Shown here: one piece after another, positions 36,802 through 56,958 of the stretch
Position numbering within the stretch: position 1 is the first letter of the stretch
How the letters are laid out: each line of letters begins with the position of its first letter
Assembly: GCA_018266335.1 (NCBI GenBank)
Contig: JAFEAR010000039.1
Span: 37,172-101,171, forward strand
DNA: 64,000 nucleotides
Direction of reading: 5' to 3'
Origin: Bdellovibrionales bacterium
Lineage (GTDB): Bacteria > Bdellovibrionota > UBA2428
Position numbers and translations under genes: made by a program
The notes under the pieces: generated by a model
What the model saw: only the letters and a program-made list of their open reading frames with translations
Told to the model about the DNA's origin: nothing
The model's database searches: none

Positions 36802-39732
36802 TTAATTGGAGAAGGGGGGGGCAGACAACTTCATTCGAAGATTGTTCGCGTCGGGGGCCTGGGGGAAAAGCTGAAGGTACCGTTCATATTCCGACTTCGA
36901 AGAGGCATAAATGCCCTGCAATTCAAACACGGCCCCCAAAATTCGGTGGGGCTCGGCCAGATGGGTATCTTTGGCCGCGGCGGCGGCCGCCGAAACCCGG
37001 GCATTATCGAGTTCCCGCAGTGCCAAATACGCTTGGGCCAAGCGAGTTAACACGCGCGGATCGTCACCGTAATTTTGTTTATATTTTTGGAAAATCTTAG
37101 GTACTTCCTGGGGCGAGTTGTTTTTAAGCATATACTCGGCCGCCTCTACAAAACTTCCCAGCACGGAGGGACGCGCCTCAATTTCGCGAATATACAATCG
37201 TACGGCTTGATCCTCTCGTCCGGCCGCCGCATAGGCTCGCGCCGCTCGAATCCACGCTTCCGGATAATCCGGATTCATATACCCCGCAGTTTCGTAGTTC
37301 GTTGCCGCTTCCAGGGGTTTTTCTTGTATTTCATAGACGTGTGCAATGTGAACAAGCGCCTCGGCCGAGTCGCGCTTTTGTGTGGCCGCACGAGAATAAA
37401 AGGCTACAGCCTTATCGTAGTCCTTCCTCCGCTCGTGAACCTCGCCCAACCTCAAGCGCAAACGAAAGGAGCTCGGAAACCGATGCAGAGCCTCCTCGGC
37501 CACTTTTAAAGCATCAGAAGAAAGATCCAAATACATCTGCGCTTCCGTCAGAGTGAGTGCCAGGGGAATGCTGCGCGGAGATTTTGCGTACAAACTCTTC
37601 AGTTCCTCGAGGGCCTGGGTGGCTCCCAGTCCGCCCAGCACGCGACACTTAAGATAAAGCAAATTGGCACGGAATTTTAGTTCGCCCGTTCCATGGACCG
37701 AAGCCAGGTTGGCGGACTTTGCGCAATTCACATTCTTCTCCGTACGGAGCCCCATGAGGGCGAAGAAGTAGTGTCCCCAGGCATCCGTCGGCGCGGCCTG
37801 CTGATACTGCAAAAAATCTCGACCGGCCTCGTCGTAGTCGCGGCCGTACATGTGAATGAGCGCATTGTACTTCAAGGACTCCGGAGTGTTGGATACCGAA
37901 AGACCAAGTTTATCGAAGGCCGCAAATGCGCGATCAAATTTATAGAGCGCGGATTCGCTCCAAATTTCGCCGCCCAGCGCAGGCACAGAGTCGCCCTTAA
38001 TTTGCAGCGCGCCACGGAACAACTCCAGCGCCCTTACCCAGTCTTCCTCAAAGGCCAAATGGTAACCCGCGGAAGTGAGCGCTTCGTCGCCTTGGGGCAT
38101 AACCCAACCCGCCACCTGCAGGCCGGCCATATCGGACTCCACAATCGGCCCCGAAGACGCGCGCCCTAAAATATCGGAAGCGATGTGAGGAAGATCCAAT
38201 CCTTCCTGATTCAAGTCCCACCAGGAGGAACCCGAAGGAGTTTTTCCCTTTTCAAAAAACTCTAGGTTCGTCGCTGCGCGCTGGGCGGTGCTTTGCCGAC
38301 CGAAGGTCGTTAGAAAATCGAGGTACTGCTTCCAAAAAATTCTTTGGTAGGGTTTGGGGAGCAGCGCAAAAGTAGAGGCGCCCATGACAAAGCGTCCATT
38401 CGCGCGCTGCACCTGATCGCTTTGAATTCGCCAATAAAACTCTGCCCCCGCAAACCAGAGTAAGGGTGAGCGCGGATCCAAATGCGAAAGCTCCTCAATT
38501 CGTTCTGGATAGTCTTTGTCCTTCGCGGCCAAACCCGTGCGAATGCTTGAGCTTAAATCTAAGTAAGTTGAAGAATAAGTATCCTTAACGGCAACGGGAG
38601 AATTGCCCGATGCCCCCTTCTCCCAAAATAGCCACCACTGCAAATCTTCCAAGAACCAAGCCACTAAATCGTTGTCCTTGGAGGGCTGCAATTTGGTTTG
38701 GGCCTCCTCCCATTTGCCTTCAAAAATTAGGGGAAGCGAATCGAAGAGCAGGGATTCTGCCGGAGGAACAACTTTAAGTTTTTCCAATTTGCGAAAAATG
38801 CGCTCGCCCTCGCTGCGCAAATTCGCACCTTGTGTTCGGTCGAACACCGCAACGGTTTCACCGAGCCACATGAGATCCCAGGCCCAGCGTCCCCAGTAAG
38901 AGGCATTCAGGCGAGCCTCAACATTTTCTTCATTGGCTAGACGCTGAATATCGTCGGCCCAAATATGTGCGCCCAATCCCTCCGGTAAAGCCCAAGTGGG
39001 GCTAAGGGCAACTTGATCGGGCGCCGCCGGCACGGCCACCTTGAGATTGGCCAACAATAAACTCAGGGGACGAGCATAGAGCAATTCACTCTGCAGCGGA
39101 GCAAACAGTTGTTTGCCGGGGCTAACGGGCGAGGTCTTATTCTGAGAATCGCGACCAAAAATCATCCAGCCCAGGCCGGCCAGAACGACCAGCAGCAAGA
39201 GCGGAGAAGTTTTACGTGCCAATTGTTTCGGGGGCGGAGGGTTCGCCGCAGGAGCGGCCAGCGGGGAGGAGGCCGGATTCACCGAGGCCTTTGCTACCAC
39301 CAGTTCCTCCGCGGGCAAGCGGAGCATTTCGGGGGGAAGCGAACGTTCGGGCTCGCGCTTCTTTTTTTTATTTACCGCTGGCGGAGGAGCCGAGGGGCGA
39401 ACGCTGCTTTTCTGCGATTCCGAGAACTGTCCCGGAGGGTTCGCTTTTTCGGCAGAATCTGGTGACTCTTCTCCGAATTGAGCCACCTGAATGGCATCAA
39501 AAAACTCCGGATCCGAAGCAATGGGCTGCCATTCGCTGGTCCCTTCGAAGAGGATAAATTCCTCTCCGGTAATTTTTTTGGCCGTAATGAAACTTAGAAC
39601 TTCCGGACGCTGATAAGGCCCGTATATTTTTCCGGAAGGCATGCGCACCTGAATCCGGCGCGACCCCATTTGCGTGTTTTCGGGATTCAACCCTCTTCCT
39701 ATAGTGGAGGATCGGGTTGAATCATCACTCAT
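36802..39732 (-). CDS. Large TPR membrane protein with N-terminal GYF-2-like domain
   Basis: A 976-residue protein. An N-terminal domain (about 26-80, IYGPYQRPEVLSFITAKKIT) resembles GYF_2/DUF4339 modules. Then come a disordered Pro/Lys-rich stretch (95-172), one membrane segment (176-193), and a long helical region. At least five tetratricopeptide repeats fill about 690-960, for example YDKAVAFYSRAATQKRDSAE and PLEAATNYETAGYMNPDYPE. The TPR part would lie in the periplasm. The ATG overlaps the nuoN stop by four bases. Similar layouts occur in gliding-motility-type proteins of delta-like bacteria; function here is unknown. Confidence 0.75.
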   Translation of the reverse strand: MSDDSTRSSTIGRGLNPENTQMGSRRIQVRMPSGKIYGPYQRPEVLSFITAKKITGEEFILFEGTSEWQPIASDPEFFDAIQVAQFGEESPDSAEKANPPGQFSESQKSSVRPSAPPPAVNKKKKREPERSLPPEMLRLPAEELVVAKASVNPASSPLAAPAANPPPPKQLARKTSPLLLLVVLAGLGWMIFGRDSQNKTSPVSPGKQLFAPLQSELLYARPLSLLLANLKVAVPAAPDQVALSPTWALPEGLGAHIWADDIQRLANEENVEARLNASYWGRWAWDLMWLGETVAVFDRTQGANLRSEGERIFRKLEKLKVVPPAESLLFDSLPLIFEGKWEEAQTKLQPSKDNDLVAWFLEDLQWWLFWEKGASGNSPVAVKDTYSSTYLDLSSSIRTGLAAKDKDYPERIEELSHLDPRSPLLWFAGAEFYWRIQSDQVQRANGRFVMGASTFALLPKPYQRIFWKQYLDFLTTFGRQSTAQRAATNLEFFEKGKTPSGSSWWDLNQEGLDLPHIASDILGRASSGPIVESDMAGLQVAGWVMPQGDEALTSAGYHLAFEEDWVRALELFRGALQIKGDSVPALGGEIWSESALYKFDRAFAAFDKLGLSVSNTPESLKYNALIHMYGRDYDEAGRDFLQYQQAAPTDAWGHYFFALMGLRTEKNVNCAKSANLASVHGTGELKFRANLLYLKCRVLGGLGATQALEELKSLYAKSPRSIPLALTLTEAQMYLDLSSDALKVAEEALHRFPSSFRLRLRLGEVHERRKDYDKAVAFYSRAATQKRDSAEALVHIAHVYEIQEKPLEAATNYETAGYMNPDYPEAWIRAARAYAAAGREDQAVRLYIREIEARPSVLGSFVEAAEYMLKNNSPQEVPKIFQKYKQNYGDDPRVLTRLAQAYLALRELDNARVSAAAAAAKDTHLAEPHRILGAVFELQGIYASSKSEYERYLQLFPQAPDANNLRMKLSAPPFSN

Positions 39733-41192
39733 CTTGCAAAGACCTCAACGAGCTGCACCCAGTGATGAAAGCGACTGAATCCCGTCAAGCAAAGGATAAG
39801 TGCCAATGTGGCCACGGTGCCGGAAAAAACTGCGCCCGAAAAGACTCGGCGCTTAGTCCAGCTCGTCGGCTCCGTCTTCTCCAGGTAAAGGGGTACAAGC
39901 GCCTTAAGGTAGTAAGCCAATCCCAACATTGTTCCCAAAAGCATAAAGGCCGCGCCGCACGTAAATCCGGAAGTCCACACTTCAGAAAGAACTAGGTATT
40001 TACCCAAGAAGCCTGGAAAGGGAGGAATCCCGGCGAGCGAAAACAAGCTGAGAGAAAATACAATAACCGCTGCCTTGGGTGCCCGAGAAGCAAGGACCCC
40101 CAACTCCGACAGGTCCACGTCATATTTTTCCGGCTGTCCGCTGCTGCGACAAAAAGAATCCACAGCCGAAAAGGCCGCAATCACCGCAAAACCATAAACA
40201 ATCAAGGTAAGCAGCATCGCGGGAGTGGCCACGGGACCGACCGCCAAAGCAAGGGCCGCATAACCTGCGTTGGCCACACTCGAATAAGCTAGCATGCGAC
40301 GCAGTTTTCGCTGCGCAACCGCGGCCAAATTTCCCCAAACGATCGAAACGATGGCCAAAGTTTGCACCACCAGAACGAAAGATTTTAAGGACCAAAAGCC
40401 CGACAGACTAAAGGCCACCGCCGCCGCACCAAAAACAGAAACTTTCGTCGCCGTAGCCAAAAAGGATGCACTCGACGAGGGCGCCGCCTGATAAACGTCG
40501 GGCGCCCAAAGATGAAAGGGAGCCAAGGCAACTTTGAACGCCAAACTCGCCGCAATCAGCAACGCGCCAGCAACCGCAAAGGCACTCGGTCCGGATTCAA
40601 AAATCTTTTTAATGAGGCCAAAATCGAAGGATCCCGCTTCGCCATACAAAAGAGTCATTCCCATGAGCAGCAACGAAGAAGCAAAGGCTCCCATCAGAAG
40701 ATATTTAATGGCGGCTTCGAGCGAGCTTTCACGGTGAATATCGAGGGCCACCAGCAAATACCCCGGGATAGCCAAAGTTTCGAGAAACACAAAGAAGGCA
40801 ATCCAATCTCGTGCACCCGGAAGAAGCGACATGCCAATAACTGCTGTAAGCGTAAGCGGCGACCACTCCGAGTGTCCGTGCACCGTTTCGCGAGCAAAGA
40901 ATCCAGCCAACAGACCAAAACACGCGGCCGCCATGCCCACCGCACGAGTAAAGGCATTAATTTCCAACGAAGTTCCAAAGATGGATTGCGAGCCGTCGTT
41001 ATAGGAGCAAGCCAAAAGCGCAATGAAGGGAATCAGCGCCAGCGCGTGCAGGGCTCGCACAACATTGTTGCTTAAGCGCAGCCCCACTCCAATCGTCGAC
41101 AGCGCCAGGCCCCCGCACAACCACAAGTAGGGAAGGAAGGCGTGAATTTGTTCCGGACTCAAGTTGAAGAGCGCAACATCCAATTGGTTCAT
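39729..41192 (-). CDS. nuoN: NADH-quinone oxidoreductase subunit N, copy 1
   Basis: Antiporter-like proton-pumping subunit of complex I, 487 residues, about 14 membrane helices. It has the conserved Glu segment FFVFLETLAIPGYLLVALD and the Lys-containing helix LAFKVALAPFHLWAPDVYQ, with RKLRRMLAYSSVANAG after it. It ends the downstream set (A-C-E-F-H-J-K-L-M-N). Its TGA overlaps the ATG of the TPR gene by four bases. Confidence 0.93.
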   Translation of the reverse strand: MNQLDVALFNLSPEQIHAFLPYLWLCGGLALSTIGVGLRLSNNVVRALHALALIPFIALLACSYNDGSQSIFGTSLEINAFTRAVGMAAACFGLLAGFFARETVHGHSEWSPLTLTAVIGMSLLPGARDWIAFFVFLETLAIPGYLLVALDIHRESSLEAAIKYLLMGAFASSLLLMGMTLLYGEAGSFDFGLIKKIFESGPSAFAVAGALLIAASLAFKVALAPFHLWAPDVYQAAPSSSASFLATATKVSVFGAAAVAFSLSGFWSLKSFVLVVQTLAIVSIVWGNLAAVAQRKLRRMLAYSSVANAGYAALALAVGPVATPAMLLTLIVYGFAVIAAFSAVDSFCRSSGQPEKYDVDLSELGVLASRAPKAAVIVFSLSLFSLAGIPPFPGFLGKYLVLSEVWTSGFTCGAAFMLLGTMLGLAYYLKALVPLYLEKTEPTSWTKRRVFSGAVFSGTVATLALILCLTGFSRFHHWVQLVEVFAR

Positions 41193-41194
41193 GA

Positions 41195-42664
41195 TTACCT
41201 CAAAGCCGCCATTAGCGTTTCAACGGCTTTATCCGCCTGATTAAGAATTCCCTGGGGACGCAAGCCGAAGTACAACATAGCGAATACGAACGGCACCACG
41301 GCCGCCCACTCATTCCAGCGCAAAGAAAACTCATGAGAAACAACCGTCGGCCCCTGCGGGCCAAACATCGTGCGACGAACCAGCGAGAGCATATAAACGG
41401 CCCCCAACAGCACGCCGGACGATGCCACCATTGCCGCAACCGGGTGATTCACGAACGAACCCGAGAGCACCAAGAACTCTCCCACGAAGCCCGGGAGGCC
41501 CGGCAATCCAATGCTCGCCATGACGGCAAAAACAAAGAGGGAGGCCAACACGGGTGCCTTCGAAGCTAATCCGCCGTACTGCGCAATCTCCCGCGTATGA
41601 GTGCGATCGTAAATAATTCCGAAAATCAAAAAGAGCGCTCCCGTGCTCAGCCCGTGCGCAATGTTTTGAAACATCGCTCCCTGGATTGATTCCGTTTGGG
41701 CACCAAACAGTCCAATCACCATGAATCCCAAGTGAGCCACGGAGGAATAGGCGATCATTTTTTTTACGTCGCTCTGGCGCCAAGCCGCCAAACTACCAAA
41801 CACGACACCCACGCAACCCAGAATCATCATGCAAGGAGCGGCCGCCAGGCTAGCCTGCGGGAAAAGGGGCAAACACCACCGGGCCATGCCGTAAACGCCG
41901 AGCTTGAGCAAAATACCGGCCAGAATAACGGAGGCGCCCGTGGGCGCTTCGGTGTGCGCATCGGGCAACCAGGCGTGAACGGGCCACACCGGTACCTTCA
42001 CGGCAAAGGCAATCACGAAGGCCAGGAAGAGCAATCCTCCCGAGGAACCCCAACCCGCAAAGGGAATTTGCATGTGCACAAGATCATGCCAACCCAAGCT
42101 CGGAACGCTCGACATCAGCGCAAGGGCAACAATCGCCAGCAACATGAGCAATGAACCAGCCATGGTGAACGCAAAAAATTTGAGCGCCGCATAGACGCGG
42201 TTCTTCGATCCCCAGCGTCCAATCAGGAAATACATGGGAATAAGCATGAATTCCCAGAAGAAATAAAAGCAAAGTGCGTCGGCCGCCAGCAACGAACCCA
42301 CGCTAGCTCCGTTCAGAATGGCGAAGAGGCCCAAATATCCCGAGCCAAGAGACTCTTTGCCCAACGAGTAAAGTGCCAAAACAACCGCCAAAAATACGTT
42401 CAGAATAACGAGTGGACCGCTCAGCCCATCCACGCCCAAACTAAAGCGACTCTTCAGCTCCGGCAGCCAGTCCCACGAAAAGGAAATCGGCATTTGGGTT
42501 GCAGAAAAATCTACTGTCCCCGAACTCCAAATGGCGACGAGAATTCCCACCCAAACCAATTGAAAGACCAAGTTCGCCCACTGGGCCGCACCCTTATTTT
42601 TACCGAAAAGAAAGAGAATAAGTCCCGCAAGAAAGGGCCAAGCTACAATCCAAATAAGGTTCAT
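41195..42664 (-). CDS. nuoM: NADH-quinone oxidoreductase subunit M, copy 1
   Basis: Antiporter-like pumping subunit, 489 residues. Key segments: LCFYFFWEFMLIPMYFLIGR (proton-channel Glu), FVIAFAVKVPVWPVHAWLPD with the central Lys, and DVKKMIAYSSVAHLGFMVIG. ATG 42664 is chosen over an upstream start because it overlaps the nuoL stop by four bases. It is somewhat shorter than the E. coli subunit (509) and than copy 2 (518). Confidence 0.95.
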   Translation of the reverse strand: MNLIWIVAWPFLAGLILFLFGKNKGAAQWANLVFQLVWVGILVAIWSSGTVDFSATQMPISFSWDWLPELKSRFSLGVDGLSGPLVILNVFLAVVLALYSLGKESLGSGYLGLFAILNGASVGSLLAADALCFYFFWEFMLIPMYFLIGRWGSKNRVYAALKFFAFTMAGSLLMLLAIVALALMSSVPSLGWHDLVHMQIPFAGWGSSGGLLFLAFVIAFAVKVPVWPVHAWLPDAHTEAPTGASVILAGILLKLGVYGMARWCLPLFPQASLAAAPCMMILGCVGVVFGSLAAWRQSDVKKMIAYSSVAHLGFMVIGLFGAQTESIQGAMFQNIAHGLSTGALFLIFGIIYDRTHTREIAQYGGLASKAPVLASLFVFAVMASIGLPGLPGFVGEFLVLSGSFVNHPVAAMVASSGVLLGAVYMLSLVRRTMFGPQGPTVVSHEFSLRWNEWAAVVPFVFAMLYFGLRPQGILNQADKAVETLMAALR

Positions 42665-44550
42665 CGACTCAACACCATCACCGCAAAAATAATGGCCGCA
42701 CCGGTGCCGGCCGCCAAATACCACACGTACGTTTGCAAGTTACCTACCTGCAACACCGACATAGCCTGCCCACCCCAGCGCACCGATGCGCCCAGGGAGT
42801 TCGCAATGCCATTGATAACTCGACCATCGATAATCTGCGTTACGAAGGCGGCGATCATGGCGAGCGGACGAATAATGACCATTTGGTACAACTCGTCCAC
42901 GTAGAATTTGTTTTCCGATAGGCGCGTAAAGAAATCGGTTCCGGGCACCGACACTTTGCCACCAAATTTTTTGAAGGAGAACCAGGCCACCGAAAGCGAA
43001 AGCACCGTAGTGAGCGCCATCAGACCCAGCTCCGTACCGTGGGACATTTCGGCGCCGTGTTCTGCCACGGCCTTCCAGCCGTACCAACCCGCCTCAACCC
43101 AGTGTTCTAACTTGTGGATACCGCCGATTGTCTCGGGGGTCTCCATCCAGCCAACCACCAGGGAGAGCACTCCGAGCACGGCCAAAGGCAACGTCATCAC
43201 GGCCGGACTTTCGTGGGCATGCGAGGCTTCTTTGGTGCGCGCTTCGCCCCAGAAGGCCAAAGCGTACAGACGGAACATGTAGAAGGCCGTCATGAGCGCC
43301 GCGCTCAACATCAAGACAAAGTAGAGGGGCCCCACTTCGAAGGCCTTCGCCAAAATCATGTCCTTGGAGAAAAAGCCCGAGGTCATCGGAAAGCCGATGA
43401 TCGCCAGCGTCGCAATCAAAAACAGAATGTGAGTAACGGGCATGTGCTTGCGCAAATTGCCCATGTCGAACAAATCTTGTTTTTCGTGCATGCCATGAAT
43501 GACGGAGCCGGCGCCCAAGAAGAGCAGTGCCTTAAAGCAGGCGTGAGTAACAACATGAAACAACGCCGCCGTGGGACTTCCACAGCCGAGAGCCACGAAC
43601 ATAAAGCCCAGCTGAGAAACGGTGGAGTAAGCCAAAACTTTTTTGATGTCCCGCTGGGTGAGGGCAATGAGCGCCGCCAGCCAGGCCGTAGCAATCCCGC
43701 CCCACATCATAACGTGGAGAACTTCCTCCTGCCCCGCAAAGATGGGCCACAAACGCACCGTAAGGAAAATACCGGAGGTCACCATGGTCGCGGCGTGAAT
43801 AAGTGCCGAGACCGGAGTCGGGCCCGCCATGGCATCGGGCAACCAGATATACAAAGGAATCTGCGCCGATTTGCCGGTCGACGCCCAAAAGAGTCCGCCG
43901 GCTACAGCCGCCGCAAGGCCCAGGGGCAACGCGGTGTTACCTCCGTTAAAGGCCGCGATGATCTCGCGAATTTGCGTGGAGCCCACGTGGCTCACCAGCA
44001 TCAATAAAGCAAAAATAAATCCCAAGTCCCCCACGCGGTTGGTGATAAAGGCCTTCATGCCCGCCGCCGCATTTTTATCGTCCGTGTACCAGTAGCCAAT
44101 GAGAAGGTATGAGCACAGGCCCACGCCTTCCCAGCCCGTAAACACGCCCACTAAATCGCCCGACAATACAAGGGTAAGCATCGCGGCCAGGAAAAGGTTC
44201 AAATAGGCAAAGAATCTCCAGGGGCTCTTGTCGTGCGACATATAGCCAATGGAATAGAGGTGAATCAGCGATCCAATGCCGGTCACCACAAGCAGCATAA
44301 TGCCCGTGACCGGAGTCGCCTCCAGAAGGAAGTCCACCTTCAGGCGACCCACATGAAACCACGTTGCGGCTAATTCAACCAGACTGGCGCCTTCGGGAAT
44401 ACGCCCAGGAACCGTGCAAGAAATAAGGAATGCGCCCAGCGCCGCCAAAGTGGCAATGGAACCCGACAACACCGCATTCTTCGAACGCAAAATCACGCCG
44501 TTGAGCAGCGCACCGAACAGCGGCAACAGAATGATCCACTTCAAGTCCAT
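42661..44550 (-). CDS. nuoL: NADH-quinone oxidoreductase subunit L, copy 1
   Basis: The largest antiporter-like subunit, 629 residues, with the lateral amphipathic helix at the C-terminal end. GDLVGVFTGWEGVGLCSYLL holds the conserved Glu, followed by AFITNRVGDLGFIFALLM and KSAQIPLYIWLPDAMAGPTP with the Lys. It lies four bases after nuoK and overlaps nuoM. The length matches E. coli NuoL (613), unlike the longer copy 2. Confidence 0.96.
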   Translation of the reverse strand: MDLKWIILLPLFGALLNGVILRSKNAVLSGSIATLAALGAFLISCTVPGRIPEGASLVELAATWFHVGRLKVDFLLEATPVTGIMLLVVTGIGSLIHLYSIGYMSHDKSPWRFFAYLNLFLAAMLTLVLSGDLVGVFTGWEGVGLCSYLLIGYWYTDDKNAAAGMKAFITNRVGDLGFIFALLMLVSHVGSTQIREIIAAFNGGNTALPLGLAAAVAGGLFWASTGKSAQIPLYIWLPDAMAGPTPVSALIHAATMVTSGIFLTVRLWPIFAGQEEVLHVMMWGGIATAWLAALIALTQRDIKKVLAYSTVSQLGFMFVALGCGSPTAALFHVVTHACFKALLFLGAGSVIHGMHEKQDLFDMGNLRKHMPVTHILFLIATLAIIGFPMTSGFFSKDMILAKAFEVGPLYFVLMLSAALMTAFYMFRLYALAFWGEARTKEASHAHESPAVMTLPLAVLGVLSLVVGWMETPETIGGIHKLEHWVEAGWYGWKAVAEHGAEMSHGTELGLMALTTVLSLSVAWFSFKKFGGKVSVPGTDFFTRLSENKFYVDELYQMVIIRPLAMIAAFVTQIIDGRVINGIANSLGASVRWGGQAMSVLQVGNLQTYVWYLAAGTGAAIIFAVMVLSR

Positions 44551-44554
44551 CGGC

Positions 44555-44851
44555 TCAACCTCTCAGCTCGCGATAATCATCCAAGAACACGCTGCCCGTT
44601 TTGCGGAACAAAGCGACCAGCAACGAAAGCGCCACGGCCGCTTCCGCCGCCGCCACCAGAACGATAAAGAGCACCAGGGCCGATCCGTCGGCATTGCCCT
44701 TGGCGTGCGCAAAGCTAACCAGGCAAAGGTTTACGCCGTTAAGCATAAGTTCCAAACACATGAGCGAAATGATGGCATTGCGCCGAACCAAAAAACCGAT
44801 GCCACCAATGGCAAAGAGGAACGATCCCAACAGAACATGAAACTCAGTCAT
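44555..44851 (-). CDS. nuoK: NADH-quinone oxidoreductase subunit K, copy 1
   Basis: A small three-helix subunit of 98 residues. The two membrane Glu used in proton transfer are present (E34 in ISLMCLELMLNGVNL, E70 in VAAAEAAVALSLLVAL). It abuts nuoJ with no gap and precedes nuoL by four bases. Confidence 0.95.
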   Translation of the reverse strand: MTEFHVLLGSFLFAIGGIGFLVRRNAIISLMCLELMLNGVNLCLVSFAHAKGNADGSALVLFIVLVAAAEAAVALSLLVALFRKTGSVFLDDYRELRG

Positions 44852-45370
44852 TTAGGAAGCTCCCTGCGATTTTGCCGGACGCCCAACAAAGATAACTCCA
44901 ATCACGGCCGCAAATATAAGCAGTCCCGTTACTTGGAAAGGAATCATGTATTTGGTCAACAAACGTACGGAGATCTCCGTCGCGCCCGCACTCTGTCCCG
45001 CGGTTTCGAGCATGGCGGCAACCGGACTGCGAAGATAAGGGATCAGCAGGCCCATTGCCAAAACCAGCCCCCCCACGGACAACAAGGCGCCCTTGGCCAG
45101 GGAGCCCGGAATGCGCACTCGTGACGGACGAAGGTCCAATAGCATGACAATAAAAACAAAGAGCACGGAGATCGCGCCCGCATAAATTAAAATTTGCACC
45201 GCGCCGATAAAAAATTGTCCAAGCCCAAAGTACAGCGCGCCCGTAGTAAAGAGCGTCGCCATCAGCGACATGGCGCTGACGATGGGATTTTTTGCCATCA
45301 CCACGTTAAGCGCCGCACACAGAGTCAAAAGTCCCAGCACAATTTGAAAAGTGGATACGTCCGCAAGCAT
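44852..45370 (-). CDS. nuoJ: NADH-quinone oxidoreductase subunit J, copy 1
   Basis: A five-helix membrane subunit of 172 residues. The conserved helix with LFTTGALYFGLGQFFIGAVQ, then ILIYAGAISVLFVFIVML is present, containing the pi-bulge region. ATG 45370 lies two bases after the nuoH stop; longer forms overlapping nuoH are unlikely. nuoI, which usually lies between H and J, is missing. Confidence 0.93.
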   Translation of the reverse strand: MLADVSTFQIVLGLLTLCAALNVVMAKNPIVSAMSLMATLFTTGALYFGLGQFFIGAVQILIYAGAISVLFVFIVMLLDLRPSRVRIPGSLAKGALLSVGGLVLAMGLLIPYLRSPVAAMLETAGQSAGATEISVRLLTKYMIPFQVTGLLIFAAVIGVIFVGRPAKSQGAS

Positions 45371-48891: not shown

Positions 48892-48894
48892 AGA

Positions 48895-49275
48895 TCATCG
48901 CTCCCATTCCAAGGCTTTGACTTTAAATTCGTACCAAAGCCCGAGCACAAAGAAGAACATAAAGAAACCCATCAGCACGAGCAGAACAATCCCGAGGGCG
49001 GAGAGCTCCTTCCAGGCCAAGGCCACGGGCAACAAAAACGCGGCCTCAAGATCGAACAAGAGAAAGAGAATCGCAACGAGATAATACTTTACGCTAATGC
49101 GATCGCGGGCAGCGCCCACCGGCGGCATTCCACACTCGTAGGGTGAAATTTTAACTGCTTCGTATTTCAAGGGCCCCAGAAAGCGCCCCAGAAAAAGCGC
49201 GCCGCCGGCCACCAGAACCGCAAAGCCAAACATCGCGAAGAGAGGAAAAATGATGTTGCTAGCGGATCCGATCAT
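48895..49275 (-). CDS. nuoA: NADH-quinone oxidoreductase subunit A, copy 1
   Basis: A three-helix membrane subunit of 126 residues with the conserved loop SPYECGMPPVGAARDRISVK and FLLFDLEAAFLLP. ATG 49275 has CGGAGTG upstream and is 11 bases after the upstream nuoN stop, so both complex I sets are in one run. An N-terminally longer frame overlapping nuoN is rejected. Confidence 0.94.
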   Translation of the reverse strand: MIGSASNIIFPLFAMFGFAVLVAGGALFLGRFLGPLKYEAVKISPYECGMPPVGAARDRISVKYYLVAILFLLFDLEAAFLLPVALAWKELSALGIVLLVLMGFFMFFFVLGLWYEFKVKALEWER

Positions 49276-49286
49276 TGCACTCCGAT

Positions 49287-50798
49287 TCAGCGGCCGGTGA
49301 AGAACACCACCGCCCCTTTCGCGATTTTTAAAACGGGCTCCCAATAAATGCCCAACACAAAGTTAGGGACCATCAAAAGACAAAGGAAAACGAAGGACGA
49401 TTTAGATTCAAAAGCGACCAGATTGGCCGGAGCAGCCCCTTCGGGTTGCTCGAGGAACATGGCCTTAATAATTTTCACGTAATAGTAGAGCGAAATAACC
49501 GAGTTAATGGCCGCCAAAATGGCGAAGCCATACATTTCCCGCGCAATAATCGCCGAGAACAAATAGAGCTTGCCGATGAATCCCGCAAAGGGGGGCAACC
49601 CTACCAACGAAAACAAAAACACGGCCATCGCTACGGCATAGAAAGGCTTGCGCTGGGCGAGTCCGCGGAAGTGACGAAGCTCATCGCCGCCGAAACCATC
49701 TTCAACCTTCGAAGCTACCCAGAAAGCGCCCAGGTTCATGAAGCAGTAGAGTAGAATGTAGAACACCATTCCGTAGAGACCGGCGTAGGTTTGAGTAGTC
49801 GAACCCATAAGAATGTATCCGGCATGCGCAATGCTGGAATAGGCCAAGATCCGCTTCACCGAAACCTGCCCGAGGGCCGCCAGGTTGCCCATGAACATGG
49901 TGAAGACGCTGGAGATCATCAAAAACTTGGGCCAATTGAAGGCGCCAACCAAGTGAAAGCTAATAGCCGAAGCTCCCGTGTGGGCTACGATTTCGCCGGG
50001 ACTCAGGGGAAGAGTAAAGGCCGTGACAAAGAAACGAATGAGCAGGGCAAAGCCCGCCGCCTTCGGCGCTACCGAGAGCAGGGCCGATACCGGAGTGGGC
50101 GCGCCTTCGTAAACGTCGGGCGTCCACATGTGCATGGGGGCGGCCGAAACTTTGTAGCCAATGCCCGCAAAAATAAAGAGCACCGAAACCCACAACAGCA
50201 TGGGAATTTGATCGGCCGGCGTGTGGGCAACATATTCGCGGAGACCTAAAAGCGTCACTTGTCCGGTAGCACCAAACAGCAAGCTCATGCCATAAACCAT
50301 GATGGCCGAAGCCATGGATCCGTAAACGACGTACTTCATCGAGGCTTCCACTGAAGCGCTATTTTCGCGGTGAAAACCCGCTAGCGTGTAACTCAGAATG
50401 GAAACCGTCTCGATCGCCAAGTAAATCATGAGCAGGTGGTTAGCGTTGCCCATGAAAATCAAGCCCGAGCAAAGCGCGAGCAGAATGGAGTAATATTCCG
50501 AGCGGCGCTCCGACTTGATTTCATTGGAGCGGGAGCTCATCACTACCGCCATCACCGTTACTAGCACGGCGAAGATGGAGAAAAAATTACCGAACTTGTC
50601 GTGCACCAACAGTCCCGCAAAGGCGTCCTGCGAAGCATGGTGTCCCATGGCCAGGTATCCGGCAGCAGCGCCGAGCAAAGCAACGAGCGAAGAGCCCAAC
50701 AAAAACGCGTGCGTCTGGCACCATAGCCCTACGGTTAGGACAAAAATGCTCCCAAAGCAGAGGAGCATGACGGGGCTGACAAACACGAGTGAGCGCAT
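49287..50798 (-). CDS. nuoN: NADH-quinone oxidoreductase subunit N, copy 2
   Basis: A second NuoN, 503 residues, clearly diverged from copy 1. LMIYLAIETVSILSYTLAGF has the conserved Glu, and GIGYKVSAAPMHMWTPDVYE has the Lys helix, followed by VKRILAYSSIAHAGYILMG. It ends the upstream set A-H-J-K-L-M-N. The copy number (1 or 2) is my own labelling. Confidence 0.94.
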   Translation of the reverse strand: MRSLVFVSPVMLLCFGSIFVLTVGLWCQTHAFLLGSSLVALLGAAAGYLAMGHHASQDAFAGLLVHDKFGNFFSIFAVLVTVMAVVMSSRSNEIKSERRSEYYSILLALCSGLIFMGNANHLLMIYLAIETVSILSYTLAGFHRENSASVEASMKYVVYGSMASAIMVYGMSLLFGATGQVTLLGLREYVAHTPADQIPMLLWVSVLFIFAGIGYKVSAAPMHMWTPDVYEGAPTPVSALLSVAPKAAGFALLIRFFVTAFTLPLSPGEIVAHTGASAISFHLVGAFNWPKFLMISSVFTMFMGNLAALGQVSVKRILAYSSIAHAGYILMGSTTQTYAGLYGMVFYILLYCFMNLGAFWVASKVEDGFGGDELRHFRGLAQRKPFYAVAMAVFLFSLVGLPPFAGFIGKLYLFSAIIAREMYGFAILAAINSVISLYYYVKIIKAMFLEQPEGAAPANLVAFESKSSFVFLCLLMVPNFVLGIYWEPVLKIAKGAVVFFTGR

Positions 50799-50799
50799 A

Positions 50800-52356
50800 T
50801 TAATGCATGACCTCGATGAGTTGGTTCAAGCTAACTTTAATCAGGTTGATGATGGGCTGAGGGTAAACACCAATCCAAAGGCACAGACTAGCGAGCGGAA
50901 CGAGAACGAACCATTCGCGGGCCGTAACTTCGGGAATGTCGTGCGCGTGGTGGAGAACTCCCGTTTCCACGTCCTTATGAAGTGCCGTGAAGGGCCCCAA
51001 GAACACCCGCTGAACCATCCACAACAAGTAGGCGGCAGTGAGCACGATACCGGCGGCAGCCACAATTGTAAGCGTTTTGTAGACCGGGAAAGATCCCAGG
51101 AAAACGAGGGCTTCAGAAATGAAGCCGTTCAATCCGGGCAATCCCAAACTTGCAAACACGGCCACCACCCAAATCGCCGTTAGCCAGGGCGCCTTTTGCG
51201 CAATCCCGCCAAAGCCGAGACGGCCATCGGGCGTAACCAAATAACGGTGGTGGAGGCGGTCGTACAGCACTCCCACCAACATGAACATCATGGCGGCGGA
51301 AATGCCGTGGTTAAACATTTGGAGCACGGCGCCCTGGATGCCGGCCGGAGTGAACACCGACATGCCCAACAGGCAGTAGCCCATGTGGCTCACGGAAGAA
51401 TAAGCGACGAGCTTCTTCAAATCCTTCTGCGCCATAGCGCAGAACGCTCCGTAAATAATGTTGATCACTCCCAAAATTGCCAGCACGTGCGCGAAAGACT
51501 CCGTGGCTTGGGGAAGAACCGTAAAGTTCAAGCGCAGCAAACCGTAAGTGCCCATTTTCAGGAGCACGCCGGCCAGAATAACGGACACGGCCGTGGGAGC
51601 TTGCACGTGCGCCCAAGGAAGCCAGGTATGGAACGGAAAGATGGGAACCTTAACCGCGAAGCCCACAAAGAGGAGCCACCAAACCGTCTTATCGAAGGGC
51701 AACTCCCAACCGAAGAGGGCGATTTTGTATTGGGTCCAGTCCATCTTTGCGAGCGTCAGAATGTTGAAGGTAGGAATGCCCTGTCCGTCGGGACCGCGGC
51801 TGTAGAAGTACAGCGCCAGCATGCCAACGAGCATGAGCACGGAACCCGCCAGGGTGTAGAGGAAGAATTTGATCGCAGCGTATTCTTTCTTTTCGCCACC
51901 CCAAATACCTACCAAGAAGTACATCGGGAGCAGCATGACTTCCCAGAAAATATAGAACAGGAAAAAGTCGAGGGAGCAAAACACGCCCATCATGCCCACA
52001 TGGAGCATCATGTACATGAGGAAGTATCCCTTCACCATTTTCTTGGTGGTCCAGCTGGCGAATACGCCCAAGAAACTCAACATGGCCGTCAAAAGCACTA
52101 GCAACACGCTAATGCCATCGATGCCCAGAAAGTACTGAACATTCAGCGAGGGAATCCAGTCCCACTGTTCCTGAAATTGAATCTGCGCCGAGCTGGAGTC
52201 GTAGCTCCGAAGCAGCACAATCGCGAGGAGTAAGGGCACCAGGGTGGAAGCCGCCGCAATCCACTTAATAAGCGTTTCCTTGGTGGCCGGGGTGAGCGCA
52301 ATGACCAAGGCTCCGATCGCCGGGAAGAAAATCATCCAACTGAGAAGATGTTCCAT
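50800..52356 (-). CDS. nuoM: NADH-quinone oxidoreductase subunit M, copy 2
   Basis: A second NuoM, 518 residues. FFLFYIFWEVMLLPMYFLVG contains the channel Glu, and GFAVKVPIFPFHTWLPWAHV the Lys helix, followed by KDLKKLVAYSSVSHMGYCLL. Its ATG overlaps the nuoL stop by one base (TAATG), and nuoN follows after one base. Confidence 0.95.
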   Translation of the reverse strand: MEHLLSWMIFFPAIGALVIALTPATKETLIKWIAAASTLVPLLLAIVLLRSYDSSSAQIQFQEQWDWIPSLNVQYFLGIDGISVLLVLLTAMLSFLGVFASWTTKKMVKGYFLMYMMLHVGMMGVFCSLDFFLFYIFWEVMLLPMYFLVGIWGGEKKEYAAIKFFLYTLAGSVLMLVGMLALYFYSRGPDGQGIPTFNILTLAKMDWTQYKIALFGWELPFDKTVWWLLFVGFAVKVPIFPFHTWLPWAHVQAPTAVSVILAGVLLKMGTYGLLRLNFTVLPQATESFAHVLAILGVINIIYGAFCAMAQKDLKKLVAYSSVSHMGYCLLGMSVFTPAGIQGAVLQMFNHGISAAMMFMLVGVLYDRLHHRYLVTPDGRLGFGGIAQKAPWLTAIWVVAVFASLGLPGLNGFISEALVFLGSFPVYKTLTIVAAAGIVLTAAYLLWMVQRVFLGPFTALHKDVETGVLHHAHDIPEVTAREWFVLVPLASLCLWIGVYPQPIINLIKVSLNQLIEVMH

Positions 52357-54488
52357 TACAATGTACCCCTTAACAAAAAGAAGAGAATCAGTGCGCCTAC
52401 AGCGACCATCAGGTACCGCTGTACTTTTCCGTTCTGTAAACTACGCAGGCTGGAACCAAAAAGATTCGGCATTCCGCCGCCCAAACCATCTACCAGCAAA
52501 CCATCAACGACCACGTCATCAAAGGCGCCGGCCGATTGCTGGGTGACCATCGCCACATCTTTCCAGCCGTCCACCACCACGCGGTCGATAACCCCGTCAT
52601 CAAACTTCGCCAAGATGGCCGAGAAGGGCATGAAAAGCTTTTGGATAACAATCTTGATGTAGAAAAAGTCGAAGTAATAAAGGTTATCGACTGCTTTCTG
52701 CACAAAGGAGGGCCACAGCTTCGAAAGTTTTTCGGCCGAAATTTTATGGGAGCCGTAAACCAGATAGCTAAACAAAATACCGAATCCCGCCAGCACAACG
52801 GAAAGCGCCATCGCCGGAATATGCGCCAAATGTTCGTAGTGCTCCAATCCTTCGTGAGCTTCGCTCGCTGCTTCCGTGGCGTGTTCCGCTACGGCTCCGA
52901 TATGGGGAGGAACAACAAGGTGTTGGAACCATTCATTGGCCGACCCCAGCACAAAGTCTCCGTGCCCCACCAGTCCGCCCGTCACCGACCCCGTATACAG
53001 CAGAGCAAATGAGAGTCCGGCCAGAACGACGAGAGGGAGCCACATGTTCCAGCTCACTTCGTGGGCTTCGTCGTAGTGGTGATGATCATGGGGATGACCA
53101 AAGAAGGTCACGAAAATAAGGCGGAACATATAAAAGGCGGTGAGTCCCGCCGTAATGAATCCGAAGATCGGAAGCAGAATATGCTTGGAATCCATGAAGT
53201 AGCCGTAGCCCAACGCCGCCGCAAGAATCTTGTCCTTCGACACAAAGCCGCTAAAGCCCGGCACGCCCGAAATAGCGAGTGTGGTAATGAGCATAGCCGC
53301 AAAGGTGATAGGAATTTTTTTACGCAAACCGCCCATGTGGAAAATGTTCTGTTCGTGGTGCATGGCATAGATCACCGCACCCGAGGACATAAACAAACAG
53401 GCCTTGAAAACGGCATGCGTAATGAGGTGCATGAAGGAGGCCGAATATGCGCCCACGCCCACCGCCAGAACCATGTAGCCCAGCTGAGAAAGCGTCGAGT
53501 AGGCCAGAATCTTTTTAATGTCCGTTTGCTTGATCGCCAGAATAGCCGCCGCGAGCGAAGTAAACGCGCCCACGTAAGCCACAATCGGCAGCACGTGCCC
53601 CACTTCCAAAAGCGGGAACATCCGCAGAATCAAATAAACGCCGGCCGCCACCATCGTTGCGGCGTGAATGAGCGCCGACACGGGCGTAGGGCCCTCCATC
53701 GCGTCCGGCAACCAAACCTGCAAGGGAAACTGCGCGGACTTGCCCACGGTGCCCATAAAAATCAGAAGGCCAATGAGGAACGAGGCTGAAGCGCCCAGGA
53801 GCTGTCCATTAAAGGCCCCCTCGCCGATGGCGCGGTAAATGTCTTCAAAACGAAAGGATCCGGTAATGCCAAAGAGGGCCAGCATTCCTAGAAAGAGGCC
53901 CGTGTCTCCCACCCGCGTGGTCATGAATGCTTTGAGCGAAGCATTCGCCGCCGAAACCTTGTGCCGGTAAAAACCGATCAAGAGGTAGGAGCAAAGACCC
54001 ATGAGCTCCCAGCACATAAACAAGGTTAGCAGGTTGTCCGAAATCACCAGCCCCAACATGGCCGAGGTAAAGAGGGACAAGTAGGAGAAGAACGAAGCGT
54101 AGCGATAGCCGTCTTCGGGCTTGCCGTGGTGATCGCGCATGTAGCCCGTCGAGAACAAATGAATCAGAGTCGCGCAAAGGGTGACCATGAGAAGCATAAT
54201 CGCCCCGAGGTTATCAATGCGAACGCCGACTTCGAATTTAAAGGGCATGCGCGCCGAACCTAAATCCAGCCACGTCCACTTCTGCGCCACAACCCAGCTA
54301 GGATCATAAGCGCCCCACATCGCACCAAAGATTTTGCAAGCACACAGAAAAGATCCAAAAATCGCGCCCGTCGAAACCCAGTCGCCCATGCGCGGCAGCT
54401 TGGTGCCCATCGCGGACTGAATGAAATAGGCCGCCAGGGGCAGCAACGGAATAAGGAGAGCGTAAGTAATAAGGGATGACTGTTCCAT
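52356..54488 (-). CDS. nuoL: NADH-quinone oxidoreductase subunit L, copy 2 (long form)
   Basis: A second NuoL, 710 residues, about 80 longer than copy 1. LTLFMCWELMGLCSYLLIGF and KSAQFPLQVWLPDAMEGPTP carry the conserved Glu and Lys. A His-rich loop (GHPHDHHHYDEAHE, near residue 464) and a second acidic and His-containing stretch (SEAHEGLEHYEHL) lie in the C-terminal third, which explains much of the extra length. Its start overlaps the nuoK stop by one base. Confidence 0.95.
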   Translation of the reverse strand: MEQSSLITYALLIPLLPLAAYFIQSAMGTKLPRMGDWVSTGAIFGSFLCACKIFGAMWGAYDPSWVVAQKWTWLDLGSARMPFKFEVGVRIDNLGAIMLLMVTLCATLIHLFSTGYMRDHHGKPEDGYRYASFFSYLSLFTSAMLGLVISDNLLTLFMCWELMGLCSYLLIGFYRHKVSAANASLKAFMTTRVGDTGLFLGMLALFGITGSFRFEDIYRAIGEGAFNGQLLGASASFLIGLLIFMGTVGKSAQFPLQVWLPDAMEGPTPVSALIHAATMVAAGVYLILRMFPLLEVGHVLPIVAYVGAFTSLAAAILAIKQTDIKKILAYSTLSQLGYMVLAVGVGAYSASFMHLITHAVFKACLFMSSGAVIYAMHHEQNIFHMGGLRKKIPITFAAMLITTLAISGVPGFSGFVSKDKILAAALGYGYFMDSKHILLPIFGFITAGLTAFYMFRLIFVTFFGHPHDHHHYDEAHEVSWNMWLPLVVLAGLSFALLYTGSVTGGLVGHGDFVLGSANEWFQHLVVPPHIGAVAEHATEAASEAHEGLEHYEHLAHIPAMALSVVLAGFGILFSYLVYGSHKISAEKLSKLWPSFVQKAVDNLYYFDFFYIKIVIQKLFMPFSAILAKFDDGVIDRVVVDGWKDVAMVTQQSAGAFDDVVVDGLLVDGLGGGMPNLFGSSLRSLQNGKVQRYLMVAVGALILFFLLRGTL

Positions 54489-54820
54489 TAGCCCTTCAAC
54501 TCCGTAGCCTGATCCGGATCGATCGACTGTTTGACGTTAAAGATTCGCAGCACAATCGCCAGTGCCACGGCCGCTTCAATGGCCGCTAGAATAATAATGA
54601 AGAGCGAAAAAATATGTCCGTGCAACCAATTGTCGGCGCCCGGCTTACGAAAAGCCTGGAAGGCCACAAAGTTCAGGGCCGCAGCATTAAGCATAAGCTC
54701 AACGCCCATAAAAATTCCCACGGCGTTCTTCCGCGACAGCACGGCCATTACGCCGAACGCAAAGAAGATTGCGGAGAGGCTAAGATAGATTTGTATGTTC
54801 TGGGCGATACCTTGAAACAT
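54488..54820 (-). CDS. nuoK: NADH-quinone oxidoreductase subunit K, copy 2
   Basis: A second NuoK, 110 residues. The membrane Glu residues E41 (FMGVELMLNAAALN) and E82 (AAIEAAVALAIVL) are kept. ATG 54820 with GGGAG upstream is preferred; a TTG at 54829 overlapping the nuoJ stop would add three residues. An added loop (FRKPGADNWLHGH) distinguishes it from copy 1. Confidence 0.93.
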   Translation of the reverse strand: MFQGIAQNIQIYLSLSAIFFAFGVMAVLSRKNAVGIFMGVELMLNAAALNFVAFQAFRKPGADNWLHGHIFSLFIIILAAIEAAVALAIVLRIFNVKQSIDPDQATELKG

Positions 54821-54825
54821 CTGAA

Positions 54826-55350
54826 TCAACTCCCGCGACGATGGTTTTTATCTTCATGGTAGTGCGGACGCGCCACAACCACGGCGCCAATCAGGCCCGC
54901 CAGCAACACGATCGACACGTATTGAAACACCAGGGCGTAGGGCCCCACCAAAGCTCGTCCCATGGCTTCCGACACGGGGGCCGGAACCATCTTTTCCACC
55001 ACATCAAAGGGCGTCCGCTGCAGAAGCTTAGTAAGTCCAATCAAAATCAACAGCGACGCAATGAAGGGAGCAAAGAAACGATTCGCCCCATCCAGAAACT
55101 TTGTCCGGTACACATTCTCGGACATCATGATTGCGAACAAAATCACCACGATGATACCGCCCACGTAAATAATGAGCTGGGCGCCCGCTAAAAAGTCCGC
55201 GCCCAATACGGCGTAAAGCCCGCCGACCGAGAGCAACGAAAAAACCAACGCAATGGCCGCATAAAGAATGTTCGGATGCAGAGCCACCAGCGCCGCGCTC
55301 ACGGCCCCCACCAAGAAACAAATAAGAACGAACAAATCCGCTAGGCTCAT
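54826..55350 (-). CDS. nuoJ: NADH-quinone oxidoreductase subunit J, copy 2
   Basis: A second NuoJ, 174 residues, with VGGLYAVLGADFLAGAQLII, then YVGGIIVVILFAIMMSENVY as the conserved core. ATG 55350 overlaps the nuoH stop by four bases (ATGA). As in set 1, nuoI is missing between H and J. The C-terminal tail is His-rich (ARPHYHEDKNHRR). Confidence 0.93.
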   Translation of the reverse strand: MSLADLFVLICFLVGAVSAALVALHPNILYAAIALVFSLLSVGGLYAVLGADFLAGAQLIIYVGGIIVVILFAIMMSENVYRTKFLDGANRFFAPFIASLLILIGLTKLLQRTPFDVVEKMVPAPVSEAMGRALVGPYALVFQYVSIVLLAGLIGAVVVARPHYHEDKNHRRGS

Positions 55351-56504
55351 GCGTAAACCCCCAACAACTTGCCAACGATTTGCAGCAGCCCCTGGCCCTT
55401 GAAAAGCCAAACCCACAACGCGGAACCCACCAGGTTAAAGAACGCGATGGGAATTAAATATTTCCAGCAGAGGTTCATAAGTTGGTCGACACGCAAGCGC
55501 GGGAGCGTCCAACGAATCCACATAACGATGAAAACCAGCACCGAGACCTTGGCCAAAAACACGGCCAGCATCAGCAGCGTCTGGATGAGCGGATTGAGGC
55601 TCATGCCCCCAACCTTCATTCCGATATCAAAATTAGAAATGTTGATGAAGGGCAAATGCCATCCACCCAAGAAGATTGCGCTCGCCACGCAGGCAAACAA
55701 GATAACGTCCGCAAATTCAGCCAGCGCGTAGAGACCGAAGCGCATACCCGAGAACTCGGTGTTGAATCCGGACACGAGTTCCGACTCAGCTTCCGCCAAA
55801 TCGAAAGGAACGCGGTTACATTCGGCCAGGGCCGAAATGAAATAGATAAAGAAGTTCAAAAACAGAAAGGGGTTGTAGAAGATGTTCCAAAAGTGGCCCG
55901 CCGAACCATCGCTAGGCCACGCCTGCCCGTCCACAATGCCGAACATGCTCATGGTGCCCGAAACCGTCACCACACTCAAAACGGCCAGACCCAAGGGAAT
56001 TTCGTAGGAAACGATTTGGGCCGCGGCGCGCATGCCGCCAATGAGTGACCACTTGTTATCGGAAGCCCAGGCGCCCAACAAAATGCCGAGCGAAACGAGA
56101 GACCCTAGCGCCATGACGTAGAAAATGCCGATGTCGAGGTCAGCACCAATGACATATTTACCGAAAGGCACCAGGGCAAAAGCGCCCATCGAGCCCGCCA
56201 GCACCAAACTCGGAGCCAAATTATAAATAAAGTGATCGGCACCGCGGGGCGCCGTGTCTTCCTTAAGGAACATTTTGATGCCGTCCGCAAAGAACTGCAG
56301 CAAGCCAATCGGACCTACGCGGTTGGGTCCGATACGCTCCTGAAAGTCGGCAGCAACCTTCCGTTCAAGGTAGGTGCAAACTCCGCCCAGGGGCATGGCA
56401 AAAAGGAGAATAACGATAACGGCCGCGAGGACCGAAAAAACGACCATCGGAATTTGGGTACCGAAAAGACCGTTCAAACCACTCAGAAATTCTGGAAAGC
56501 TCAC
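55347..56504 (-). CDS. nuoH: NADH-quinone oxidoreductase subunit H, copy 2
   Basis: A second NuoH, 385 residues. QERIGPNRVGPIGLLQFFAD, ECNRVPFDLAEAESELVSGF and LVFIVMWIRWTLPRLRVDQL are conserved. It starts at GTG with GGAAAGGG upstream, seven bases after nuoA. It follows nuoA directly, with B, C, D, E, F and G all absent from this set. Confidence 0.95.
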   Translation of the reverse strand: MSFPEFLSGLNGLFGTQIPMVVFSVLAAVIVILLFAMPLGGVCTYLERKVAADFQERIGPNRVGPIGLLQFFADGIKMFLKEDTAPRGADHFIYNLAPSLVLAGSMGAFALVPFGKYVIGADLDIGIFYVMALGSLVSLGILLGAWASDNKWSLIGGMRAAAQIVSYEIPLGLAVLSVVTVSGTMSMFGIVDGQAWPSDGSAGHFWNIFYNPFLFLNFFIYFISALAECNRVPFDLAEAESELVSGFNTEFSGMRFGLYALAEFADVILFACVASAIFLGGWHLPFINISNFDIGMKVGGMSLNPLIQTLLMLAVFLAKVSVLVFIVMWIRWTLPRLRVDQLMNLCWKYLIPIAFFNLVGSALWVWLFKGQGLLQIVGKLLGVYA

Positions 56505-56511
56505 TCTTCGC

Positions 56512-56958
56512 TTACCCTTTCCGCTCCGAAGAAACTCCGAACACGCCCTGGCGAGTCAAAGCCTCTTTGCGATCCATGAAATCCTTCACCCAATCGATGT
56601 CGCCTTTTTTCCACTCGTAAATAAGGCCGATCAAAAGAACAAACAGGAACGCGAAGGCCAGCAAAAACACCGGGGCCGCGCCGGAGCCGCTTTCAACGGC
56701 ACCGCGGAAAAGTCGAAGAACGGGGAAAAGAAGCGCCACTTCCACGTCAAAAACCAGGAAGGCAATGGCCACGAGATAAAAACGGTTGTTGAACATGACG
56801 TAAGCGGAGCCCTTGGGCAACTCACCGCATTCGTAAGTTTCGAGTTTTCCTGAATGGGGATACGAAGGCCGGAAAAACTTCGATATAAATAGAATAAGAG
56901 GCGGAAGAATAGCGGCTAGAATGACAAAACAAAGTGCATTCCCGAATTCTTGAAGCAT
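56512..56958 (-). CDS. nuoA: NADH-quinone oxidoreductase subunit A, copy 2
   Basis: A second NuoA, 148 residues, with the loop LETYECGELPKGSAYVMFNN and the acidic helix LVFDVEVALLFPVLR. The C-terminus is extended (WKKGDIDWVKDFMDRKEALT) compared with copy 1. It is the first gene of the complex I array and is divergent from mfd across 52 bases, where the array's promoter should lie. Confidence 0.95.
   Translation of the reverse strand: MLQEFGNALCFVILAAILPPLILFISKFFRPSYPHSGKLETYECGELPKGSAYVMFNNRFYLVAIAFLVFDVEVALLFPVLRLFRGAVESGSGAAPVFLLAFAFLFVLLIGLIYEWKKGDIDWVKDFMDRKEALTRQGVFGVSSERKG

Follow-up and report, generated by a model that had tools for sequence, protein, structure and literature searches.

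Tandem membrane arms in a Bdellovibrionales bacterium, very probably of two different complex I enzymes

What is encoded by a nuo cluster in which every membrane subunit of complex I appears twice while NuoB, NuoD, NuoG and NuoI are missing? The question was raised by a run of 17 genes in a stretch of 64,000 nucleotides from a Bdellovibrionales bacterium (contig JAFEAR010000039.1, positions 37,172 to 101,171; the whole stretch is referred to as the window). We consider it very likely that two different complex I enzymes have their membrane arms encoded in this run, one of 14 subunits (set 1) and one of 11 subunits (set 2). Set 1 and the products of B, D, G and I genes at other loci would form a standard 14-subunit NADH:quinone oxidoreductase, and set 2, together with a second, diverged type of B, C, D and I that is also encoded elsewhere (Bx, Cx, Dx and Ix), would form an 11-subunit complex without NuoE, NuoF and NuoG. 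Both gene sets were seen in the window, and the pairing was shown by gene content in relatives, which were sought among 368 Bdellovibrionota genomes (G numbers; loci have L numbers). The missing genes were traced in these relatives and not in the window's own genome, which we infer to carry the missing B, C, D, G and I genes.

The tandem cluster and its recurrence in relatives

All 17 open reading frames (ORFs) matched nuo families of NCBIfam. They form a head-to-tail run on the minus strand between 56958 and 39729, transcribed in the order A2-H2-J2-K2-L2-M2-N2 followed by A1-C-E-F-H1-J1-K1-L1-M1-N1. When six starts (A1, H1, J1, M1, J2 and K2) were moved to positions that we judged likelier, the intergenic gaps were −4 to +11 base pairs, so that the cluster has no space for B, D, G or I, and the run looks like one transcription unit. 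The family matches and gap lengths thus confirmed a preliminary description made from the letters of the window, which had reported 17 nuo genes in this order without B, D, G and I, with the membrane subunits twice and C, E and F once. All seven membrane subunits were present in set 1 and all seven in set 2, as follows.

56512..56958, minus strand: nuoA2 (set 2), family match, YECG motif
55347..56504, minus strand: nuoH2 (set 2), family match, in the H2-type clade (16 rows, support 100 in the Shimodaira–Hasegawa-like approximate likelihood ratio test, SH-aLRT)
54826..55350, minus strand: nuoJ2 (set 2), family match, likelier start chosen
54488..54820, minus strand: nuoK2 (set 2), family match, likelier start chosen
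52356..54488, minus strand: nuoL2 (set 2), 710 amino acids, lateral-helix region of 89 amino acids
50800..52356, minus strand: nuoM2 (set 2), family match, motifs
49287..50798, minus strand: nuoN2 (set 2), family match, motifs
48895..49275, minus strand: nuoA1 (set 1), family match, likelier start chosen
48352..48891, minus strand: nuoC (set 1), family match
47816..48349, minus strand: nuoE (set 1), above the TIGR01958 cut-off
46449..47819, minus strand: nuoF (set 1), above the TIGR01959 cut-off
45373..46452, minus strand: nuoH1 (set 1), family match, placed in the NuoH tree, likelier start chosen
44852..45370, minus strand: nuoJ1 (set 1), family match, likelier start chosen
44555..44851, minus strand: nuoK1 (set 1), family match, motifs
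42661..44550, minus strand: nuoL1 (set 1), 629 amino acids, lateral-helix region of 60 amino acids
41195..42664, minus strand: nuoM1 (set 1), family match, likelier start chosen
39729..41192, minus strand: nuoN1 (set 1), diverged, under the TIGR01770 cut-off

NuoE and NuoF of set 1 carry motifs that presumably bind NADH, flavin mononucleotide and iron–sulphur clusters. Both sets keep the charged-residue motifs of L, M, N and K, found with patterns that were tuned by eye sequence by sequence, and the YECG of A; we take these residues to be important.

We found that the tandem recurs in relatives. Protein similarity places the window in Bdellovibrionota: a protein with the name 'Bdellovibrionota bacterium' matched NuoL2 at 69% identity, and other matches were named Deltaproteobacteria and Bdellovibrionaceae. 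Among the 368 genomes the nearest were G369–G372, with NuoL2 71–73% identical, followed by most of G277–G290 at 55–58%. As far as the contigs or fetched stretches extend, the tandem with C-E-F inside set 1 was seen in G369–G372 (L180, L184, L185 and L188), and the tandem without C-E-F in G278, G284, G286, G287, G288, G291, G010 and G013. Set 2 stood alone in the stretches read from G027, G069, G042 and G053, and set 1 alone in those from G178, G213 and G250. Four close relatives and eight more distant ones share the tandem, which makes an assembly accident unlikely. A misassembly that joined two loci, for which no evidence was found, was rejected as having next to no likelihood. A NuoF scan across many phyla revealed no tandem within the stretches examined at its best 80 loci.

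Peripheral genes and the pairing of set 2 with Dx

The peripheral genes missing from the window were located in relatives. G278 has two peripheral operons, B-C-D-E-F-G-I and Bx-Cx-Dx-Ix, and G010 has B-CD-E-F-G-I and Bx-Cx-Dx-Ix besides its twin arms. In G053, set 2 and Bx-Cx-Dx-Ix occur with one NuoH, exactly three pump proteins and no NuoF match. A complete A-N operon elsewhere, which the preliminary description had named as evidence against its reading, was found in G111, an assembly of one 4.15-Mb contig, yet set 2 stands apart there: three separate places hold the full A-N operon (L242), set 2 by itself (L243) and Bx-Cx-Dx-Ix by itself (L244). Peripheral genes are more scattered in the window's own clade than in G278 and G010. 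G369 has a solo Bx, a Cx-Dx-Ix cluster and, on another contig than the window-type cluster, a NuoB–NuoD fusion adjoining NuoG; in G371 the canonical NuoI lies on a different contig. Thus canonical B, D and G were seen in G369 and I in G371, and no single close relative shows all four. The fusion (L182:10543-12249 of G369) is 568 amino acids long and has no NuoC domain. It was considered as a feature specific to the clade, and this was rejected, since 118 of the 120 matches listed carry both domains, some of them named from other phyla. In G372, an ORF at L193:5318-7180 begins as a NuoB–NuoD fusion and runs into a DnaJ protein, perhaps on a chimeric contig.

We then compared the occurrence of the two types across the 368 genomes. 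Set-2-type NuoL was called at a best E ≤ 1e-120 and Dx-type NuoD at a best E ≤ 1e-118, to which three partial matches of ≥52% identity were added; NuoF, the one marker used for the NADH module, was called strong at E ≤ 1e-165 and absent when no match was better than 1e-15, assembly completeness being ungraded. Set-2 NuoL was found in 121 genomes, Dx in 123 and both in 113 (Fisher p 6e-72, with relatedness ignored, so that these are not independent events). NuoF had matches in 287 genomes, of which 245 were strong, 38 intermediate and 4 weaker than 1e-15. According to cross-counts tallied by hand from the separate searches, Dx was present in 50 of the 51 set-2 genomes without NuoF, and NuoH was found once in 37 of them, twice in 12 and not at all in 2. 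When set 2 occurred with a strong NuoF (56 genomes), Dx was present in 49, and NuoH was found twice in 48 and three times in 8. The remaining 14 set-2 genomes, with an intermediate NuoF match, were placed in neither group. Dx occurred in 2 of the 189 genomes with a strong NuoF and no set-2 NuoL.

The tree check that the preliminary description had proposed for the paralogues was run for NuoH and supported this pairing. In the NuoH tree (44 rows), the set-2 type formed a single separate clade with the support listed above, and the set-1 type fell among the other 28 rows; H1 of the window belonged to a ten-row group (support 85, with the fork drawn open) that also holds the NuoH of L020, whose A-N operon carries NuoF. 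The NuoD tree (34 rows) placed Dx in one clade (11 rows, SH-aLRT 100) apart from the canonical D of Bdellovibrionota; ten matches had been omitted from it by a motif filter, namely eight NuoB-part pieces of the fusion query, Dx of G372 and a hydrogenase-like D of G069. Short NuoL rows were likewise set aside. Cross-matches between corresponding subunits of the two sets were about 25–42% identical. A set 2 that is a decaying, non-functional duplicate of set 1 might be expected to show such distance, and this idea is nevertheless refuted for the most part by genomes like G053, in which set 2 is the only arm found. Moreover, set 2 was complete in most loci read, with single broken frames in G286 and G291 that may be sequencing errors, its key charged residues are kept in the window and its NuoH has a clade of its own, and hence we give decay hardly any credence.

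Several observations weigh against the assignment to two enzymes. Set-2 NuoL was found without Dx in 8 genomes and Dx without set-2 NuoL in 10, and two NuoH were present in the 12 genomes without NuoF counted above. In G013 the twin arms stand in tandem, and there is a single NuoD type and no NuoF. G296 and G304, small assemblies of 1.2 and 1.4 Mb, are without NuoF and carry their two arms on different contigs, and in G304 two NuoB were found but Dx alone. G018 and G023 have two NuoH, one NuoD type and no NuoF, and the pieces fetched from them show set 2 and then end. Among the four close relatives, neither a second NuoB nor a fusion was found in G370 and G371, the fusion of G372 is interrupted by the DnaJ domain, and canonical B and D are whole in one. 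Finally, B-CD-I runs without E-F-G between them were seen in L354 (G063) and L355 (G084, much diverged), where the NADH module of the canonical type has apparently been lost, so that 'no NuoF' need not equal 'set 2 only'. The sites expected to flank the canonical peripheral operon were inspected in three of these genomes. In G013 a 31% match was the most that either neighbour gave; one of the two lay 630 bases from the low contig end in G023, where the other was missing; and in G018 one was found and the other gave only a 33% match. These results fit assembly gaps, which is not proof of them.

The preliminary description had offered two readings, that the missing genes lie elsewhere and one peripheral arm docks on two alternative membrane arms, or that one of the sets is part of another respiratory complex. 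A shared, interchangeable arm would agree with the single C, E and F of the window beside two of every membrane subunit, with the one NuoD type of the twin-armed G013 and with the Dx found alone in G304. We nevertheless regard it as improbable: G369, G278 and G010 combine twin arms with two distinct NuoB, C and D sets, the drafts of G278 and G010 fit the presence of two complete Q-modules, in G111 set 2 lies apart from a complete A-N operon, nearly every set-2 genome without NuoF has Dx, and the failure to find the operon's neighbours in G013 fits a gap in its assembly. The location of the missing genes elsewhere is upheld by inference from relatives (NuoB, C-D-I and the fusion by NuoG in G369, NuoI in G371), the docking of one arm on two is not supported, and the second reading is supported, with set 2 paired to an 11-subunit complex without NuoE, NuoF and NuoG.

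A third kind of complex I was also seen among these genomes. It is encoded by a contiguous A-B-C-D-H-I-J-K-L-M-N operon without E, F and G, and its NuoL has a lateral-helix region of 60 residues (L247–L250, from G004, G165, G332 and G353).

Residues, electron donor and known enzymes

To gain insight into the chemistry of the second type, we inspected its conserved residues. Bx retains the conserved cysteines and Ix both CxxCxxCxxxCP motifs, and Dx retains the GPQHPSTHG loop and a tyrosine 49 residues after its histidine, like known NuoD; we assume the usual roles for these residues, the histidine and tyrosine of Dx presumably forming the quinone site. About 25 residues (the MEALIHHFK region) that the other aligned NuoD contain are missing from Dx. 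Against solved structures, Dx had its best match in mammalian NDUFS2 (352 bits), with cyanobacterial NdhH at 307 bits, and NuoL2 matched cyanobacterial NdhF best, both by sequence and by fold (the latter ranked by E-value). Set 2 could instead be part of a group 4 [NiFe] hydrogenase or another enzyme that does not use quinone, and Dx of G371 does match PF00374 weakly (E 1.8e-4, under the cut-off). Dx is not closer to hydrogenases than to NuoD, however: Dx of G369 scored its 352 bits to NDUFS2 vs 150 to the membrane-bound hydrogenase subunit 6cfw_L, the loop and tyrosine are retained, and by eye the alignment showed no nickel-binding cysteine pairs. On these grounds Dx was rejected as a hydrogenase subunit, and we hold a hydrogenase or similar enzyme to be very improbable.

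The apparent absence of the NADH-reading part from set 2 suggests that its enzyme probably runs on another electron donor. In the 11-subunit enzyme proposed here, electrons would come from (or, in reverse, go to) a low-potential carrier such as ferredoxin and would pass via N6a, N6b and N2 to quinone, with protons presumably being pumped. Ferredoxin is named because it was proposed as the donor of a Desulfitobacterium 11-subunit enzyme in the available text of PMC11238625.

The neighbours of Dx-Ix pointed to the quinone pool. In the four close relatives, the genes after Dx-Ix encode, in this order, a protein of 279–330 amino acids (in which HEAT repeats were called for G369, G371 and G372 but not for G370), a Rieske protein, cytochrome b in two parts and finally a long protein. 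The parts of this bc-type complex were all called by Pfam in G371; those assigned by likeness alone are the first cytochrome b part in G369, the second in G370 and both in G372. In G369, G371 and G372 this final protein carries eight CXXCH motifs and is a cytochrome c; in G370 the contig ends within it, and it was left unassigned. This gene order suggests that the set-1 and set-2 enzymes share one quinone pool, and the linkage of NuoC-D-I to the Rieske, cytochrome b and octahaem cytochrome c genes hints at a connection of complex I with a bc-type complex. The gene after Ix was unrelated in both genomes checked outside the clade (G013 and G027). The octahaem cytochrome c was seen to have a cbb3/FixO-like part (L183:1765-4728, L187:1847-4753 and L190:7180-10116).

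The kinds of enzyme are known, and the arrangement and the variant are new. Set 1 resembles the 14-subunit NDH-1 (NuoA-N) in its membrane subunits with C, E and F, and in the B, D, G and I of relatives, and differs in that the genes are scattered here, with the NuoB–NuoD fusion by NuoG in G369 and NuoI elsewhere in G371. Set 2 with its partners has the A-B-C-D-H-I-J-K-L-M-N content of the 11-subunit complex I and cyanobacterial NDH-1, without the N-module. Unlike the one operon of that enzyme, its membrane arm and B-C-D-I are at separate loci, the arm adjoins that of a 14-subunit enzyme and the lateral helix of NuoL is long. Distinct complex I enzymes in one genome are described in the available parts of papers on Rhodobacter sphaeroides (IA/IE, PMC4859585) and on Anaeromyxobacter, whose complex I clusters stand back to back (PMC2330069). 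As far as those parts go, the present case differs in having the membrane arms in tandem and the NADH module apparently in one enzyme only. A literature search over titles and abstract openings, with few subscription journals, yielded no description of this arrangement that we recognised, and the main text of a Bdellovibrio metabolic-model paper (PMC7529429) does not mention NADH, respiratory, quinone or electron transport.

By NuoL type, an apparently NADH-independent complex I thus occurs in about one-third of the Bdellovibrionota genomes searched (121 of 368), 37 of which have one NuoH found and no NuoF. The tandem forms may be co-expressed, and organisms with set 2 only make the question of how the 11-subunit complex I is fed with electrons testable.

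The long lateral helix, pump number and flanking genes

We also found that the lateral helix of set-2 NuoL is long. The region, taken as the segment between two conserved points of NuoL, was 86–90 amino acids in 33 of 35 distinct set-2-type segments, the other two (59 and 69) being cut by contig ends. It was 60 in all 24 other NuoL of Bdellovibrionota, which comprise the set-1 type and the third-kind operons, and 59–62 in all 56 of other phyla. In a second sample, most other NuoL again had 59–62, two of other phyla had 55–56 (L311 and L312) and three segments were unreadable. The set-2 region thus exceeds the usual length by about 28 residues. Among the relatives of NuoL2 the region was long in 119 of the 120 matches listed, the remaining one being a fragment. 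When the lateral helix of NuoL2 was used as the query, 19 proteins matched: 17 of the same kind as the window's, and two distant proteins (P0241 and P0242) whose region was long as well, at 85 amino acids; this search is too insensitive to map the helix across nature. The distance from helix start to last helix in AlphaFold models was 83 residues in NuoL2 vs 57 in NuoL1, at low confidence in the helix part of NuoL2 (block means 40–75).

Such an insert has been linked to a fourth pump (available text of PMC9040806 and PMC6606698), and these accounts also describe it in Manganitrophaceae complexes with canonical gene content. As a positive control, the four-pump clusters L309, L310 and L313 (genomes G374, G373 and G388), in which NuoL is followed by three further antiporter-like proteins (G373:C12, G374:C29 and G388:C30), had a region of 85 residues, and the three-pump NuoL of G373 had 60. 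Loci in G384 and G003 also had 85 residues, the pump number there not being settled. The original account of the 2M complex I in Nitrospira is reportedly that of Chadwick (2018). In the parts available of PMC6606698 and PMC9040806, the NuoL lateral helix of the 2M complex is likewise lengthened by about 25–28 residues, and in 2M clade 3 NuoE and NuoF are absent from the cluster (PMC6606698). Set 2 differs in that it has no second NuoM gene. A fourth antiporter-like gene was absent in 8 of the 10 genomes without NuoF that were examined: exactly three PF00361 proteins were counted in G027, G036, G049, G050, G051, G052, G053 and G072, with four in G042 and five in G054. The region was long in nine of these ten, with G054 missed by the pattern; in G072 the pattern began early, and the counted part was long by eye.

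The set-2 enzyme might therefore be four-pump long with three pump genes, its fourth place being taken by a second copy of the same NuoM or by a spacer protein, although we offer this tentatively and think it unlikely. In twin-arm species, the set-2 enzyme might borrow a set-1 pump. If a three-gene enzyme of four-pump length did exist, the pump number of complex I would be set by protein stoichiometry instead of gene number; a helix of four-pump length in three-pump genomes is a test case for helix length as a measure of pump number.

The cluster is flanked in the window by a divergent gene, identified by its family match:

57011..60544, plus strand: mfd, divergent neighbour

A divergent ORF of mfd-like size, judged by size and position only, flanks the cluster in many relatives. 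Scans of the window with Rfam and for tRNA genes revealed one tRNA-Arg and nothing of relevance to the cluster. Two further proteins were seen on the minus strand of the window. One of 550 amino acids (16872-18524) had a mycosin-like serine protease match far under the family cut-off, and one of 667 amino acids (19614-21617) contains a 4Fe-4S and two cysteine-rich (CCG) stretches and fell under the cut-offs of the TfrB/LdhH/GlpC-type families.

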